Program-made: the position numbers and the translations under genes
Source: a bacterium
GTDB taxonomy: Bacteria; Bacteroidota; Rhodothermia; Balneolales; M1805
Assembly: GCA_006226965.1 (NCBI GenBank)
Contig: SBGQ01000178.1
Span: forward strand, 1 to 32,678
Length of the DNA stretch: 32,678 bases
Reading direction: 5' to 3'
Notes under the pieces: generated by a model
Database searches by the model: none
What the model was told of the DNA's origin: nothing
Seen by the model: the letters and a program-made list of their open reading frames with translations, nothing else
Shown: piece after piece, positions 944 through 30,203 of the stretch
Position numbering within the stretch: the first letter of the stretch is position 1
How the letters are laid out: every line of letters begins with the position of its first letter

Positions 944-3250
944 ATGAAAGCATTTTTAATTTTCTTGTTCTTGATTTCCCTTTTTATCGAGAGTTCAGCA
1001 CAACAACAAACTATTTCAGGAACAGTTAAAGACGCTCTTTCTTTGGAAGGTCTGCCCGGAGCAAACGTTTCTTTACAACCCGGAAATTACGGAGCGGCAA
1101 CTGACTTAGACGGTAATTTCAAACTCACAAACATTCCTTACGGACGCTATACCGTAACCGTCAGTTTTGTCGGGTTTCAATCTAAAGTTTTACAAGCTGT
1201 TGAAGTTAATTCTGCCAAACAAGTGATCTTAGAATTTCTGCTCGAAGAAGAAGTCTATACTTCGGAAGGCATAACCATAACAGCGCAACCCAACCGCGCT
1301 GAAGTACAAAATTTATTCACGCAAGTGAGTGCAATTTCGTTTTCTGTTGAAGAAACCCGACGTTTTGCAGGAGCAATGGACGATCCTCTGCGTGCTGCGG
1401 CAGTTTTCCCGGGTGTTGTTCAAAGTGGTGATGTAAACTCAAACGGAATCGTTGTTCGGGGAAATTCTCCCAAAGGGTTGCAATGGCGCTTAAACGGTGT
1501 ACGTATTCCCAACCCGAATCACTTTGGAAATGTAGGGCGTTCTGATGGCGGTGTAACTTTGTTTTCAACGCAATTATTGGCTAATTCTGACTTCCTCACT
1601 TCGGCTTTTCCTGCTGAATACGGAAATGCAAGCAGCGGTATTTTCGATATTCGCTACCGAAAAGGAAACGCTAATCAACGTGAGCACACCGTTCAGGTTG
1701 GCATTAACGGTATTGACTTGGCAACCGAGGGTCCGCTCGGTTCCGGAGGTTCATCATCCTATCTGATTAACTACCGATATTCCATTTTTGGCTTTTTGCA
1801 ATACATAGAACCCGATATGAAAGGAAAAGTACCGCAATATCAGGATGTGAATTTTCAGTTTGATTGGCAAACTGAGAAATGGGGAAATTTCACGTTTTTC
1901 GGTGTAGGCGGTATGGATGAATCCTCAGCAAAACCGGAGCCGGATGGTGATTTCACCCTAGAGGAACGCATGGATCAACGCTTAGATAACAATGTTGGCG
2001 TTTTAGGTTTACAACACAGTTACAGTTTATCAAAACGTGCTGCATTACAAACAACCTTAAGTTTTGTAGGCAGACAAGTTGATTTTCGTGATGGAATGCG
2101 CGACTCAGTTTTTACCTATCAACCCTTGAGTAATGTGAGTCAGTTAAATTACACTTGGGCAATAGAACAATCCGTAACTCAAAAACTGTTTGAACATGGT
2201 TTGATGCAAATCGGTTACCGCGCTGCTTTAGACGGTTTCGAAACAACCATAAGCGAAACTTTAACACAGCAAAACGGCTTGGAATCCATAGCCGATGACA
2301 ACGGAACTACTCAAAATCTTGAAACGTATATCCAAACCAAATGGAATCTGAGTCCGCAATTGAGCATAAATACGGGCATTCATTCTATGTATTATCGTTT
2401 AACAGATTCGTTTACTTTAGAACCAAGAATCTCTGCTAAGTATCTGTTCACAAACGGAAACTCATTTGCTTTGGCCTACGGTAACCACGCTCAGTTAGAA
2501 GATATTTCTGTCTATTCGATGAATCTTAACGGCGCTTCAAACTCCGATTTAAAACCCGGACGAGCTCATCATTTTTCAAGTACTTACAGTTTTGGTTTAA
2601 GTGATAATCTTCATGCGCAGGTAGATGCGTATTATCAGTATTTATATGACATTCCGATTGTTTTTGGGTCTTATAAATCTCTTATTAATCATGCTGGCGG
2701 AGTTGTAACCGATTCGTATATCAACAACGGGAAAACCTACTCTTATGGTCTTGAATTGATGATTGAGCACTTTTTCAAAACCGATTATTACTATTTGACA
2801 ACGGTTTCCTGGAATAACAGTCGTTACCGTGACGGCAGCGATATTTGGAGAACGAGTCGCTATTCTTCAGGACTTACGTTAACCGCATTAGGAGGAAAAG
2901 AATGGCGTTTCACAGAAAATAACAGTCTTAGTTTGAACATTCGCGCTACGCATACTTTAGGCGAATATTACATTCCTGTCGATGTGAGTGCTTCGAAACA
3001 AGCCGGTGTAGAGGTGATGAATGCGAATACTGTTTATCAAGAGCGTCTGCCAAACTTTATTTATGTGGATTTTTCTCTCGGATATAAATCGAACTATGCG
3101 AAATCTTCCGGCGAATGGAGCATTCAAATTAAAAATATGCTCAATCAGCGTCCGATAATTGGTTATTCGTACAACTCGGTAACCGAAACTGTTGAAGAAA
3201 TGAAACCGCTTGGAATTATTCCGATTCTGGCTTACCGCTATAATTTTTAA
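944..3250 (+). CDS. TonB-dependent outer-membrane receptor with carboxypeptidase-regulatory-like domain
   Basis: This is a 768-residue outer-membrane receptor. Residues 1-19 are a signal peptide ending SSA before QQQ. Residues about 22-108 form a CarboxypepD_reg-like beta-sandwich (GLPGANVSLQPG, then TDLDGNFKLTNIPYGRYTV). A plug domain follows (about 130-230, with VVRGNSPKGLQWRLNGV), and the rest is a beta-barrel of alternating aromatic strands ending in YRYNF, a typical outer-membrane C-terminus. Such receptors import a ligand with energy from TonB-ExbBD. It is shorter than SusC-type receptors and has no SusD partner nearby, so glycan uptake is not indicated; the substrate is unknown. A heptad-repeat element begins 3 bp after its stop codon, and I see no intrinsic terminator. 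Confidence 0.88.
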   Translation: MKAFLIFLFLISLFIESSAQQQTISGTVKDALSLEGLPGANVSLQPGNYGAATDLDGNFKLTNIPYGRYTVTVSFVGFQSKVLQAVEVNSAKQVILEFLLEEEVYTSEGITITAQPNRAEVQNLFTQVSAISFSVEETRRFAGAMDDPLRAAAVFPGVVQSGDVNSNGIVVRGNSPKGLQWRLNGVRIPNPNHFGNVGRSDGGVTLFSTQLLANSDFLTSAFPAEYGNASSGIFDIRYRKGNANQREHTVQVGINGIDLATEGPLGSGGSSSYLINYRYSIFGFLQYIEPDMKGKVPQYQDVNFQFDWQTEKWGNFTFFGVGGMDESSAKPEPDGDFTLEERMDQRLDNNVGVLGLQHSYSLSKRAALQTTLSFVGRQVDFRDGMRDSVFTYQPLSNVSQLNYTWAIEQSVTQKLFEHGLMQIGYRAALDGFETTISETLTQQNGLESIADDNGTTQNLETYIQTKWNLSPQLSINTGIHSMYYRLTDSFTLEPRISAKYLFTNGNSFALAYGNHAQLEDISVYSMNLNGASNSDLKPGRAHHFSSTYSFGLSDNLHAQVDAYYQYLYDIPIVFGSYKSLINHAGGVVTDSYINNGKTYSYGLELMIEHFFKTDYYYLTTVSWNNSRYRDGSDIWRTSRYSSGLTLTALGGKEWRFTENNSLSLNIRATHTLGEYYIPVDVSASKQAGVEVMNANTVYQERLPNFIYVDFSLGYKSNYAKSSGEWSIQIKNMLNQRPIIGYSYNSVTETVEEMKPLGIIPILAYRYNF

Positions 3251-3253
3251 AAA

Positions 3254-3309
3254 GGTATATGGTGTAAGGTGTAAGGTGTAAGGAGTATGGAGTATGGGGT
3301 ATGGAGTAT
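3254..3309 (+). repeat. Tandem heptads GGTGTAA / GGAGTAT (8 units)
   Basis: Eight consecutive 7-bp units share the pattern GGNNTAW. They are the left arm of composite element copy 1 and begin 3 bp after the upstream stop codon. Confidence 0.85.
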
Positions 3310-3357
3310 TCAGGTTCTAAATCAACAATCAGCCATCAGCCATTTCTAAAATCCGAC
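3254..3357 (+). repeat. Composite heptad-repeat element, copy 1
   Basis: Eight 7-bp units lie in perfect register at 3254-3309: GGTATAT, GGTGTAA three times, GGAGTAT twice, GGGGTAT, GGAGTAT. After a short joint comes a right arm with CAGCCAT units (about 3328-3343), then TTTCTAAAATCCGAC. The right arm nearly matches the reverse complement of 5976-6025. It sits between the TonB receptor stop and the methyltransferase start, reading left arm to right arm on +. Further similar CCGCAATCC bases run toward 3370. Confidence 0.8.
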
Positions 3358-3385
3358 GCCCGCAATCCAACTTCCTAAATTTGCC

Positions 3386-5578: not shown

Positions 5579-5968
5579 ATGGAAATTACGATTACAACCC
5601 CGGCCCTTCTTTTCCCTGCCATTTCACTACTCTTACTTGCCTACACAAACCGGTTTTTAACTATTTCTAATTTGATTCGCACGCTCCACGCTAAATACAA
5701 AACCGATCCGGCGGAGCAATATCTCAATCAAATCAAAAACCTCCGCATTCGTGTTCATTTGATTAAAAACATGCAGCTTTTAGGAATTTCATCACTTTTA
5801 CTGAGTGTAATTTGTATGCTTTCTTTGTTTATGGGATGGATTATTGCCGGAAAATGGTTGCTTGCAATCAGTCTGACTTTACTTGCTGTTTCTTTAGGAT
5901 TTACGATTCGTGAAGTTCAGATTTCCGGACATGCTTTGGAAATTCAGTTAAGCGATATGGACCAGTAG
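5579..5968 (+). CDS. DUF2721 family membrane protein
   Basis: This is a 129-residue integral membrane protein. A first hydrophobic segment with the family signature TTPALLFPAISLLLLAYTNR (about 6-25) is followed by a cytoplasmic-type stretch (LIRTLHAKYK to LRIRVHLIKN). Two more hydrophobic helices lie at about 64-87 and 91-109, then a short hydrophilic tail. This matches the small DUF2721 family, whose function is not known. The ATG at 5579 follows a candidate promoter. The TAG stop at 5966-5968 runs directly into the heptad-repeat element, and a DNA glycosylase gene converges from the other side. Confidence 0.8.
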   Translation: MEITITTPALLFPAISLLLLAYTNRFLTISNLIRTLHAKYKTDPAEQYLNQIKNLRIRVHLIKNMQLLGISSLLLSVICMLSLFMGWIIAGKWLLAISLTLLAVSLGFTIREVQISGHALEIQLSDMDQ

Positions 5969-6081
5969 ATGTCGGATGTCGGATTTTAGAAATGGCTGAT
6001 GGCTGATTGTTGATGGTTGATTTAAAACCTCCATACTCCATACTCCATACTCCATACTCCTTAAACCTTAAACCATTCTCC
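5966..6081 (-). repeat. Composite heptad-repeat element, copy 2 (reverse orientation)
   Basis: Read on +, it begins at the TAG stop codon with ATGTCGG twice (5969-5982), then TTTTAGAAATGGCTGATGG and TTGATGGTTGAT-type units. It ends with seven in-register heptads at 6033-6081: ATACTCC four times, TTAAACC twice, ATTCTCC. On the minus strand this is the same left-arm-to-right-arm order as copy 1, and the 50 bp of right arm are nearly identical. It fills the gap between two converging genes; the glycosylase stop lies 9 bp beyond it. Confidence 0.82.
6033..6081 (-). repeat. Tandem heptads ATACTCC / TTAAACC (7 units)
   Basis: Seven consecutive 7-bp units. On the minus strand they read GGAGAAT, GGTTTAA twice and GGAGTAT four times, so they belong to the same GGN5 class as copy 1. 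Confidence 0.85.
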
Positions 6082-6090
6082 TTACTATCT

Positions 6091-7038
6091 CTATTTTCCG
6101 CGCCTTTTCTTCTCTCTCACCAAATAATTGATATACATAAACTCAATCGCCAAAGACTCATACCCTTTCCAACGGTGAATCAATTGTTGAAAATCCTGCT
6201 CTGAAATTTCATCTGGATTTGCGCCATAACTCAAAGAAATCCATCGTCTGAGCGCCTTTTCCATGCCTTTATCTTTATTAGACGGAAATACACAATCCGT
6301 TCTTGAACGAAAAATCATAATATCCTGCGCTGAGGTCGGGCCGATACCGCGCACTTTCGTAATGGTATCATAAAACACTTGCGGTTCACAGTTTTCCAAC
6401 TCATCCAAATTCATAGTTCCGGAAACTATATCCTGCGCAAAACCAACTACATATTCGCCTTTTCGAAGTGATAAACCGTACTTTTTCATATTCATGGGGT
6501 CACCGCTCATCAATTGTTGCGGAGTCGGCCAACTGGCGATTAATCCGTCTTCGTGCGGAATCATGGTTCCGTATCCGGAGCGAACTCCGTACACCATTTT
6601 TTTAGCTGTAGGTTTATGCGAAATCTGAGTTTGTATAATTCTGTTGATGGTATCCTCAAAAATAGTGGCACGTGTCATGCGTTTAAAACCGTAAAAATCG
6701 AGCATCAAGGAACCTAAAACCGGATCGTCTTGCGCCTGCTCCATCAAGGGTTTTAAATCAATTTGTGTTCCCAATATTCTGGCAAGCTGCTTATTCGCTT
6801 CATCGATTTCGTTTTTCGATACATCTGAAGTCGTCCGAATATCAAACACCGGATTTTCGGGATCACCGTTAAACATCACAGTAAAAATAAAATCTTTGTC
6901 ATTCACTCTAAGTGGTCTCGTAAACCCTTGATCAGCAATAGTTTCTATCTGATGTTCAAAATCGAAATAATCATCAGCATCCAAACAAAGGAAAAAATCG
7001 TGTGGTGCAATGGATTTTAATTGCCAGCGAGTTGACAT
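6091..7038 (-). CDS. DNA-3-methyladenine glycosylase II-like (AlkA/HhH-GPD family)
   Basis: This is a 315-residue base-excision repair enzyme of the HhH-GPD superfamily. The N-terminal 90 residues resemble the AlkA N-domain. The helical core has the FEDTINRIIQTQIS helix (127-140) and the helix-hairpin-helix KVRGIGPTSAQDIMIF (228-243), followed by the loop CVFPSNKDKGMEKALRRW. The catalytic aspartate is probably D256; it sits one residue later than in the usual FPxxDLG pattern, implying a one-residue loop insertion. The expected reaction is excision of alkylated purines. The KKRRGK tail is strongly basic. Its 3' end abuts the heptad-repeat element and it has no recognisable terminator. Confidence 0.8.
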   Translation of the reverse strand: MSTRWQLKSIAPHDFFLCLDADDYFDFEHQIETIADQGFTRPLRVNDKDFIFTVMFNGDPENPVFDIRTTSDVSKNEIDEANKQLARILGTQIDLKPLMEQAQDDPVLGSLMLDFYGFKRMTRATIFEDTINRIIQTQISHKPTAKKMVYGVRSGYGTMIPHEDGLIASWPTPQQLMSGDPMNMKKYGLSLRKGEYVVGFAQDIVSGTMNLDELENCEPQVFYDTITKVRGIGPTSAQDIMIFRSRTDCVFPSNKDKGMEKALRRWISLSYGANPDEISEQDFQQLIHRWKGYESLAIEFMYINYLVREKKRRGK

Positions 7039-25807: not shown

Positions 25808-25954
25808 GGTTGGTTGGTTGATGTATATGTATAAAACTGAGTAATAAACCTCTAAAGAATGCTGACAATACGATTTGAACGCACTTTTTGCAAGCATTTT
25901 TTTTGATTAATACGGATTGTTTTCACTTGATGGGGATTTTTGAAAAGGTGTAAA

Positions 25955-26038
25955 GGTTTCAGGTTTGAGGTTTCAGGTTTGAGGTTTCAGGTTTGAGGCT
26001 TGAGGCTTGAGGCTTGAGGCTTGAGGCTTGAGGAGTAT
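25955..26038 (+). repeat. Tandem heptads GGTTTCA / GGTTTGA / GGCTTGA (12 units)
   Basis: Twelve consecutive units without a break in register. The first six alternate between two variants, giving a 14-bp higher-order period; the next five are identical GGCTTGA and the last is GGAGTAT, the unit seen in copies 1 and 2. Confidence 0.9.
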
Positions 26039-26101
26039 GCGAAATTCAGTAGTAAGCATTCAGCATTCAGATATTGTTCAGGTTTTCCAAATCAAAATCT
26101 G

Positions 26102-26164
26102 CCATCAACCATCAACCATCAACCATCAACCATCAACCATCAACCATCAACCATCTACCATCAA
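26102..26164 (+). repeat. Tandem heptads CCATCAA (9 units)
   Basis: Seven CCATCAA, one CCATCTA and one more CCATCAA, all in register. On the minus strand the unit is GGTTGAT. The same unit occurs twice in copy 4 and singly in copies 1 and 2. Confidence 0.9.
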
Positions 26165-26299
26165 CAATTTCCGAAATCCGATTCGAAGCACAGCGTAGAA
26201 CCGCGAAGCGAAATCAAACATCTTCCGTCAATTCTTCATAATTCATCAAATTGGAATAACTTTTGAAAGCAGTTCATCAGAATAAACAAAAAGGAAACT

Positions 26300-28183: not shown

Positions 28184-29167
28184 ATGAAAATATTGTATGG
28201 CATCCAAGGAACCGGACACGGACACGTAAGCAGGGCACGTGAAATTCTCCCTGCATTAATGGAAAACTACGATGTTGATATTCTGATTAGCGGTTATAAT
28301 TCCAAATTACATATTGAGCAACCCATTAAATATCGTTGCAAAGGCATCAGTTTTATTTACGGTCACGGTGGTATTTCGTTGTCTAAATCCTTGCGGGAAC
28401 TCAATTTGATTCAATATTTGCGTGATACGGTTAATCTGAATGTGAGCGATTATGATTTAGTGATTTCAGATTTTGAACCGGTAACGGCTTGGGCGGCACG
28501 CATCAAAAAAGTGCCTTCGTTGAGTATGAGTCACCAATCGGCATTTGCATCCGATAAAACTCCGCGTCCTGACAAAGTTTCGCGAATCGCTGAAATGGTA
28601 ATGAAACACTATGCACCTTGCGACCAATCCATTGCGTTCCATTTCGAACAGTACGACGATTTTATTATGCCGCCGATTATTCGCGAGGAGGTTCGCCGTT
28701 TAAAACCTTATGTCGGCAACCATGTAACGGTGTATTTACCGGCATTTTCAGAGCAATTGTTAATTGATGTATTCGGAAAACTGAAACAACGCGAATGGCA
28801 TATTTTTAGCCCTTCTATTACTGAAAGAAAGCGTATCGGAAACATGATTCTAATTCCGGTAAACAATCAGGAATTTCTAAGCAGCTTGGAAGGCAGCGAA
28901 GGTTTAATTACCTCTGCCGGTTTTGAAGCTTGTGCGGAAGCTATGTATTTGGGAAAAAAATTACTCACTATTCCTATTCAACATCAATATGAGCAATATT
29001 GTAATGCTGCTGCGCTCAAAAAAATGGGTATTACGGTTATTCCAAAAATCTCCAATACCATGATTGAGAAAATTAATGCCTGGGTTGAATACGATGAAAT
29101 GATTCCGCTTCCGAATTATTCAACAGCACATGATGTTATTGCAAAAATGAAGCAGATGTTTGCTTAG
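28184..29167 (+). CDS. Glycosyltransferase family protein (GT-B, MurG/PF13528-like)
   Basis: This is a 327-residue GT-B fold enzyme. The N-terminal KILYGIQGTGHGHVSRAREILPAL loop is typical of this group, which resembles MurG and UGT-type transferases. The C-terminal half carries the sugar-nucleotide site region (SSLEGSEGLITSAGFEACAEAMYLGKKLLTIPIQHQYEQ), again MurG-like. It probably transfers a sugar to a lipid or other acceptor at the inner membrane. It is coupled in an operon with the LpxH-like phosphatase, which suggests glycolipid or lipid A-related work. The TAG stop at 29165-29167 flows directly into twelve ATGTCGG heptads. Confidence 0.83.
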   Translation: MKILYGIQGTGHGHVSRAREILPALMENYDVDILISGYNSKLHIEQPIKYRCKGISFIYGHGGISLSKSLRELNLIQYLRDTVNLNVSDYDLVISDFEPVTAWAARIKKVPSLSMSHQSAFASDKTPRPDKVSRIAEMVMKHYAPCDQSIAFHFEQYDDFIMPPIIREEVRRLKPYVGNHVTVYLPAFSEQLLIDVFGKLKQREWHIFSPSITERKRIGNMILIPVNNQEFLSSLEGSEGLITSAGFEACAEAMYLGKKLLTIPIQHQYEQYCNAAALKKMGITVIPKISNTMIEKINAWVEYDEMIPLPNYSTAHDVIAKMKQMFA

Positions 29168-29339
29168 ATGTCGGATGTCGGATGTCGGATGTCGGATGTC
29201 GGATGTCGGATGTCGGATGTCGGATGTCGGATGTCGGATGTCGGATGTCGGATTGTAGAAATTTTTGATGGTTGATGGCAGATTTTTGATTTGGAAAATC
29301 TGAAACTTGAATGCAGAATGCTTAAACTGAATTCTCCTC
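29165..29339 (-). repeat. Composite heptad-repeat element, copy 4 (reverse orientation)
   Basis: Read on +: the TAG stop of the glycosyltransferase, ATGTCGG twelve times (29168-29251), a TTGTAGAAATTTTTGATGG joint, two TTGATGG units (from 29265), the core shared with copy 3 (GGAAAA at 29293-29298; ATGCAGAATGC at about 29311-29321), and ending GAATTCTCCTC. The final part overlaps the last codons of the converging gene. On the minus strand the module order equals copy 3, but the left-arm heptads are reduced to GAGGAG. Confidence 0.85.
29168..29251 (-). repeat. Tandem heptads ATGTCGG (12 identical units)
   Basis: 84 bp of perfect tandem repeats start on the base after a stop codon. The same unit occurs twice at 5969-5982, also directly after a TAG stop. 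On the minus strand it reads CCGACAT. Confidence 0.95.
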
Positions 29340-30203
29340 AACTCTTAGCGCAACTTCGAGCTTTTTTAACTTTTCGATTAGTTGTCGGCGTATTAATACC
29401 CCTTGTTGATACAATTTCTTTTGTTCGCGAACATATTCTTCTGCGCCTTCTTTTGTCTCGATAGGAATATTGATTTCACCCAAACCGGAAACATCGTACG
29501 GACTCGCTTTCATATCAATCCAACGCGCGTTCCAGGCTAAATCAAACGCTTCCCAAATAGTTTCGGAATCAATCCACGGATAAAATTTAAAAGCCCAACG
29601 GTAAACATCCATATTCGTATGAATGCATCCTCCCTGCTCCATTTCCGGCATTTCAGGCTTTGTCAATTGATACGCATTTAAAGGTTTTGCAGGTTGAGTA
29701 AAAAATCGGAACGCATCATAATGTGTGCAGCGAATCGGGCGGGATTCCACAAAACGTTGTGTGGCTTCGGGACTGAGTCGCAAAGGTAATTTGTGACGTT
29801 TGTCGGTTTCTTCTTTGTACACCATTGCCCACTCGTGCATACCCAAACAGCCAAATTGTGGTTCATGCTCCTGCGTTTTTTCGAGCATGTCAATCAACCA
29901 AAGTAAAGAATGAAAACGGTGCGATGGAAACTGACGTAAATCCATCATCCAAGAATCACCGGTATCAACAAAAAGAGATTCGTTTGGAATTTCTTTGCAA
30001 TCTTTGTCCAGCTTTACATCAAATCCCGCAGAAAAACGCTCGAGAAGTCCCGGGCGAAACGAATAATAATCAAACAAGAAATCTATTGCAGGATGTTTAG
30101 CTCCGGCTTCCCGTTTATCCAAATACAATGAAAGCCGTTCTTTTACTCGGTTTTCATGAGCTAATTTTCGTTCGTAAAATTCGGATGCGTTTAATCGTTG
30201 CAC
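29322..30203 (-). CDS. Conserved protein of unknown function (family sometimes labelled 3-methyladenine DNA glycosylase)
   Basis: The 293 residues match a family I know from Actinobacteria and Bacteroidota by the strings HPAIDFLFDYYSFRP (about 37-51) and RPIRCTHYDAFRFFTQPAKPLN. Other blocks that look conserved are FGCLGMHEWAMVYK, RHKLPLRLS and EQGGCIHTNMDVYRWAFKFYPW. Database entries often call it 3-methyladenine DNA glycosylase, but I see neither a helix-hairpin-helix nor an AAG-type fold signature. The many His, Cys, Asp and Glu in those blocks would suit a metal enzyme, which is inference. It starts at GTG (30203), the only good start after an in-frame stop. The last codons (EENSV and TAA) fall within repeat element copy 4. 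Confidence 0.72.
   Translation of the reverse strand: MQRLNASEFYERKLAHENRVKERLSLYLDKREAGAKHPAIDFLFDYYSFRPGLLERFSAGFDVKLDKDCKEIPNESLFVDTGDSWMMDLRQFPSHRFHSLLWLIDMLEKTQEHEPQFGCLGMHEWAMVYKEETDKRHKLPLRLSPEATQRFVESRPIRCTHYDAFRFFTQPAKPLNAYQLTKPEMPEMEQGGCIHTNMDVYRWAFKFYPWIDSETIWEAFDLAWNARWIDMKASPYDVSGLGEINIPIETKEGAEEYVREQKKLYQQGVLIRRQLIEKLKKLEVALRVEENSV

Follow-up and report, generated by a model that had tools for sequence, protein, structure and literature searches.

The heptad composite described here is a new, lineage-specific family of small non-coding repeats dispersed through the genome, with about 30 copies that lie mostly against gene ends. Precedents exist for heptad arrays, for Bacteroidetes heptamer assemblages, and for modular repeats such as BOX; it is the ordered composite that is new. 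The window, the whole stretch of 32,678 nucleotides that was analyzed, is contig C57 of a draft Balneolales genome (G000; 3,783,809 bp in 184 contigs) and contains four copies. Statistics were drawn from ~945 kb of stretches, most of which were picked for repeats, and gene ends were taken from a simple ORF caller, not from curated annotation. Copies were located with a profile of 102 positions, aligned from 19 copies with their arrays collapsed, and matches with E<1e-8 were regarded as strong. An exact run was defined as at least 13 matching bases at a given period, with dinucleotide-preserving shuffles as the control.

The four sites were present at the positions given in the original prediction, with copies 2 and 4 on the minus strand. 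Five exact runs of period 7 were detected in the window, while 0 of 200 shuffles contained any, and Tandem Repeats Finder reported period 7 at 4/4 sites. The constant 7-bp unit that had been proposed was thus seen as a period at every site, but some units are 8 bp long (GGTGTAAA). Copy 1 (3251..3357, plus strand; profile match R1 at 3266-3362, E=1.9e-17) starts one base past the TAA stop (3248-3250) of ORF 944-3250. Its left arm, which extends to 3309, consists of AAAGGTATAT, three GGTGTAA units, and four GGAGTAT/GGGGTAT units, and is followed by the joint TTCAGGTTCT, AAATCAACAAT, a CCATCAG arm, and TTTCTAAAATCCGAC. Copy 2 (5968..6083, minus strand; profile match at 5970-6068, E=7e-21), read as its reverse complement, comprises two GGTTTAA units, four GGAGTAT units, the joint GGTTTTAAATCAACC, a CCATCAG arm, and TTTCTAAAATCCGACATCCGACATC. 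The right end of copy 2 overlaps the TAG stop (5966-5968) of ORF 5579-5968 by the last base, and the 3' end of ORF 6091-7038 lies close to its left end. Copies 1 and 2 had nearly identical right arms, as expected.

Copy 3 (25943..26181, plus strand; profile matches at 26044-26119, E=2.6e-9, and at 26139-26181, E=5e-6) is located between two divergent genes. Its left part, to 26038, carries AAAAGGTGTAAA, alternating GGTTTCA and GGTTTGA, five GGCTTGA units, and GGAGTAT; the middle contains ATTCAGC heptads (26044-26070) and the core GTTTTCCAAATCAAAATCTG (26082-26101); and the right part consists of nine CCATCAA units (26102-26165) and AATTTCCGAAATCCGA. The right end is diverged and reads TTTCCGAAATCCGATT rather than TTTCTAAAATCCGACAT as had been stated. 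A TTCGAAGCACAGCGTAGAACCGCGAAGCGAAATC module is joined to this end at 26182-26215. The same module was observed in C135, C12, and C160, and elsewhere it sits between heptad halves; some elements have a longer middle with TTCACGTTTCGTGAA.

Copy 4 (29167..29339, minus strand; profile match at 29239-29338, E=3.1e-22), read as its reverse complement, has a diverged left part (AGGAGAATTCAG... GCATTCT GCATTCA AGTTTCA), the core CAGATTTTCCAAATCAAAAATCTG (29279-29302), two CCATCAA units, TTTCTACA, and 12.4 units of ATCCGAC (29167-29253; GATGTCG on the plus strand). Its right end overlaps the TAG stop (29165-29167) of ORF 28184-29167 by the last base, and the element occupies the entire convergent spacer up to ORF 29322-30203. 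The protein encoded before copy 4 aligned to several homologues over residues 1-327 of 327, i.e., through its last residue, and is therefore not truncated. The sequence TTTTCCAAATCAAAA is common to copies 3 and 4 as proposed, but close variants of the core, which had been considered unique to these two copies, were found genome-wide. Likewise, a left arm of GG heptads had been assigned to copy 4, where only the diverged units given above were found. The predicted list of modules therefore holds as an overall plan but not for every copy, the left arm of copy 4 and the right end of copy 3 being the exceptions. Within its core, copy 4 also has a short perfect stem (CAGATTTT/AAAATCTG), which other copies do not conserve. 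A protein search for syntenic relatives with a window protein returned homologues of only ~50% identity, too distant for their spacers to be compared with those of the window, but the matches provided a panel picked independently of repeats. The homologues place the genome in Balneolales, and species of the same family were absent among the relatives searched.

Across the genome, the profile detected about 31 strong places, and full or near-full-length matches outside the training set were obtained at C132, C58:10464, C150, C124, and C160. Three heptad patterns occurred at 78, 111, and 276 places, compared with 0, 11, and 0 in the reversed control. ATCCGAC was the commonest expanded unit among those searched, its two-unit word occurring at 276 places. 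Tokenizing the modules, a procedure independent of the profile, yielded 28 clusters of four or more module types, in which 359 of 372 module pairs followed the consensus order. The remaining 13 pairs were reversed and mostly involved GGTTTNA, which is present twice in the skeleton. The 359:13 count indicates that the order belongs to a dispersed element. The idea of a defined, dispersed, ordered element thus stood up to the genome-wide search, in which the heptads were found neither in random order nor at only four sites. The element is also distinct from slippage of a single repeat, as had been argued, since an ordered skeleton is common to the ~31 places. It shares with heptanucleotide simple-sequence repeats (LSSRs) tandem 7-bp units beyond the length given by chance, but their other trait, one unit per array with no wider homology between loci, does not describe loci that share a skeleton. 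The element core was absent from ~85,000 species genomes and from the IMG/VR viral contigs searched, and the repeat is therefore lineage-specific.

The step length of the arrays was strongly biased. In 491 kb picked for repeats, 64 exact runs had period 7 and 15 had period 8, and 0 were detected at periods 5, 6, 9, 10, 11, 13, and 15. In a repeat-independent panel of 80 Bacteroidota loci picked by protein, periods 7 and 14 led, with period 8 close behind. Module tokenizing showed that every module is multiplied in some copies and single in others, with copy numbers of 1-7 for GGTGTAA, 1-8 for GGTTTNA, 1-5 for GGAGTA, 1-13 for TATTCAG, 1-12 for CCATC, and 1-13 for ATCCGAC. About 20 contig ends of G000 fall inside heptad or octad arrays (for example, C56:1-95, C62:1-95, and the ends of C99 and C133). 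Many of them are cut at 93-95 bp within the array, so that the real arrays are probably longer, which suggests that they exceed the k-mer of the assembler. Heptad arrays accordingly break short-read assemblies of this group, and they offer ready-made length markers.

The unit itself can change while the step is kept. Three sister species from a different Balneolales genus (loci L286, L288, and L293 in G057, G006, and G042) share an orthologous spacer in which the arrays were ATCAGCT x6, ATCACCT x11, and ATCACCA x8; across 700 bp, the identity of the right flanks was 89-93%. Another orthologous spacer in the sister species carried ATCAGCT in 10, 9, and 8 copies. The three different units at one orthologous spacer indicate that the unit is replaceable and the period is retained. 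Slippage in steps of 7-8 nt would be the simplest reading of the period bias. Among the longer simple repeats, heptads are the most frequent in many bacteria, and the polymerase footprint is the main cause suggested for this. Two papers (PMC4679880, PMC4692102) credit the idea of a footprint of 7-8 nt to an earlier survey.

The position of the element relative to genes was also constrained. Its right end has a fixed phase, terminating directly after CGACATC. For 12 of the 19 full copies with both neighbors known, the distance of this end from an opposing stop codon was -2 to +6 bp; C136, where a contig end bounds the left side, brings the count to 13. The gene on the right of these stop-adjacent copies runs toward the element. 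Read in the sense of that gene, the element starts with GATG, often completing the stop codon (T plus GA or TA plus G), as in copies 2 and 4. The left end, TTTGAAAAGG or TTTAAAAAGG, also touches stop codons in C61, C124, C54, and copy 1. At the convergent copies 2 and 4 and at C124, almost no spacer is left outside the element.

Furthermore, the arms showed a strand polarity. In the window's genome, the gene closer to the array was the one 5' of its G-rich strand for 50 of 56 arrays (p=1e-9; 24/26 at stop flanks and 26/30 at start flanks), although many of these 56 arrays are members of one element family and hence non-independent. The same polarity was observed in 14 of 17 cases in the protein-picked Bacteroidota panel and in 16 of 19 in stretches of other Balneolales, some of which are orthologous. 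In G084, a genome of another Balneolales family with TTGAGTA heptads and one weak profile match only, the polarity was 35/45 (p=2.5e-4), and at loci with both arms the C-rich arm lay 3' of the G-rich arm (6 vs. 0). Spacer ends free of arrays showed no skew of this type at stops and a weak skew at starts. A phylum-wide sample of GG-phased arrays, for which a reversed control is uninformative because the pattern is palindromic in order, gave 25/43, which is not significant overall, and within 10 bp a bias was observed beside stops (16/26 vs. 5/22; Fisher p=0.009). Orientation-independent polarity was consequently dropped as a phylum-wide rule and kept for Balneolales and for stop-codon flanks. 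In Balneolales, the polarity of the arms is thus set by the edge of the neighboring gene and not by gene direction. Neither this polarity nor the fixed right end at stop codons was part of the original prediction. Some spacers of G084 (e.g., L419 and L435) consist wholly of diverged heptads (TTGAGTA, GGTTGGT, TTAGTTG, and AGAAGGC), which are more varied than those in the window's genome.

The observed features are copies throughout the genome, a common module order, a period bias, expanded units that differ between copies, a right end near stop codons, and strand polarity. We consider it likely that all copies descend from one skeleton of ~100-130 bp (AAAAGGTGTAAAGGTTTTAGGAGTAAGGAGTATTTAGGTTTTAAGTTTTCCAAATCAAAAATCTGCCATCAACCATCAAAAATTTCTAAAATCCGACATC), that a different heptad in each copy was multiplied in place by slippage of 7 nt, sometimes 8 nt, and that the copies spread as units, possibly by duplication, gene conversion, or enzymatic mobilization. 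Since the skeleton is a run of 7-bp quasi-repeats, almost any part of it could slip. The copies would then have persisted at spacer edges, with both arms G-rich on the strand leaving the neighboring gene. The original prediction that something preserves both order and unit length was right in that both are conserved, but one process need not be responsible: the order would follow from derivation from one skeleton, and the unit length from a step bias that acts on all arrays, including those of relatives. The common order could also result in part from gene conversion between spacers rather than from spread as units. The element probably has no dedicated function and is tolerated at spacer edges. 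Descent and slippage alone leave the strand polarity unexplained, and likewise its recurrence with unrelated units in another Balneolales family (G084) and in Xanthomonas and Nostoc (PMC4692102).

The phase of the right end could alternatively reflect a MITE-type element mobilized in trans by a stop-codon-targeting transposase, the first bases GATG completing TGA or TAG, but we regard this as unlikely. The right ends adjoin stop codons in the same heptad phase, and left ends are found at stops in the four cases listed above. However, terminal inverted repeats were absent, the two ends matching at 1-5 of 12 positions, which is about the chance level. Many array ends are undefined, and the few copies for which both ends could be placed showed no target-site duplication. 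Mobilization of the RAYT/REP type was rejected, as no match to PF01797, the Y1/REP-associated transposase, was detected in the genome under conditions in which control matches were positive. The palindromic unit and Y1 transposase of REP/BIME were thus not observed; there was no consensus fold. Moreover, selection alone would also leave a stop codon beside a non-coding block.

It is somewhat more doubtful that the element acts at 3' ends in both directions, terminating the transcripts of both flanking genes. RNA read from either direction would start G-rich and become C-rich and G-poor, with YC every ~7 nt, which by its letters would resemble Rho-utilization sites. Right ends lie at opposing stops in the 12 of 19 copies and C136, and hardly any convergent spacer remains outside the element at copies 2 and 4 and at C124. 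We retain this role as a candidate because the element is the whole spacer at some convergent sites. On the other hand, a hairpin between the GG arm and the CC arm was rejected, with single folds at z -1.8 to +1.2 relative to dinucleotide shuffles. No consensus base pairs were found across the 19 aligned copies, no Rfam family matched the element, and an intrinsic terminator search gave no terminator-like match inside copies 3 and 4, the elements examined. The polarity is also seen at start flanks (26/30), which is unexpected for a terminator; copy 3 is located between divergent genes; and copies with one arm missing persist.

The polarity and the arm plan would in principle be accounted for if heptads were added to 3' ends at double-strand breaks and the extended ends were then joined, so that the G-rich arm, joint, and C-rich arm would be the scar of a telomere-like 7-nt extension that was later spread. 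The polarity counts (50/56, 14/17, 16/19, and 35/45 in G084) and the constant position of the C arm 3' of the G arm in G084 (6 vs. 0) are in the expected direction, and by analogy the plan would match head-to-head interstitial telomeric repeats; in vertebrates, telomeric-like repeats are inserted at double-strand breaks (PMC7215372, PMC8537989). Nevertheless, we consider both the process and the scar highly improbable. The many unit sequences within one genome leave no single template, there is no candidate enzyme, and polarity in the wider Bacteroidota was not significant overall (25/43). In addition, a dispersed skeleton covers most copies in the window's genome without breaks, making these copies non-independent. 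Finally, that simple repeats arose independently at each site and are alike by chance or composition is scarcely credible, because although heptad arrays are common in the phylum, non-periodic stretches (AAATCAAAAATC and AAATTTCTAAAATCCGAC) are conserved, full-length profile matches occur outside the training set, and the 359:13 order refutes it.

Among known systems, the cyanobacterial STRR are heptanucleotide tandem units in the intergenic DNA of a distant group, and their likeness to the present repeat is the unit length; we know of no composite module order for them. No specific report on tandem repeats of Balneolaceae was found in the literature. The original prediction that the group has no described equivalent has to be qualified with respect to heptamers. 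The available text of MacGregor 2015 (PMC4679880) describes "larger assemblages of heptamer repeats" for Elizabethkingia anophelis, in intergenic regions that are almost the same as one another, and also notes heptamers in Gramella and Aequorivita. Like the present repeat, the TAACTGA and other assemblages of that text are intergenic heptamer direct repeats of Bacteroidetes in which contigs break; they are described there for few sites, and that text mentions no ordered dispersed family, polarity rule, or unit turnover at orthologous spacers.

The heptanucleotide SSRs of Xanthomonas (GGGAATC) and Nostoc (GGGGA(C/T)T) likewise have 7-bp units with G runs, are mostly intergenic, and vary in length between related strains (Rehm et al. 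2015, PMC4692102). The same polarity rule was reported for them, the G-rich sequence being on the coding strand 0-50 bp past stops and on the non-coding strand close before starts (PMC4692102). In contrast to the present repeat, they have one unit type per genome and no ordered multi-unit skeleton, and their GGG or GGGG units are quadruplex-capable, whereas the units found here (GGTGTAA, GGAGTAT, and GATGTCG), as read from their letters, appear to carry mostly one GG and not the GGG of those SSRs. BOX of Streptococcus pneumoniae (PMC3049150) is similarly a small dispersed intergenic element with fixed module order and variable internal copy number. It differs in having terminal inverted repeats, target duplications, and a predicted RNA fold, whereas the present repeat has neither inverted repeats nor a fold and contains many different expandable modules, all of 7-8 bp. 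STAR of Staphylococcus (PMC3532100) also comprises direct repeats scattered through intergenic DNA, with expansion and contraction at individual loci, but consists of a 14-bp GC-rich motif with ~40-bp spacers between.

These results indicate that the gaps between bacterial genes can be assembled and remodeled 7 bases at a time, in a constant strand direction. Swapping of the unit with the period kept, polarity at gene edges, and recurrence in distant bacteria make the question of step length testable, and any mechanism must cover step length and polarity jointly. Polarity and unit turnover are the two features that most deserve follow-up.

Octad composite arrays (ATCTAATC, ACCTAATC, ATTACATC, GCTACATC, and ATCAACTA) were also observed in G000, at C16:9050-9159, C41:8819-8903, C55:1-95, C61:6025-6119, C80:10348-10408, and C108:9550-9637. 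Those of C16 and C41 come after the hairpin CTCCCGTATGCACGGGAGTGAC, and another comes after GAGGGCTTTTCGTTTC. Arrays of GATGTCG/ATCCGAC were found in another Bacteroidota family (G365:C1:483118-483154, L358) and in another Balneolales genus (G023:C198:12327-12361, L067), in both cases with no other part of the element in the sequence inspected.
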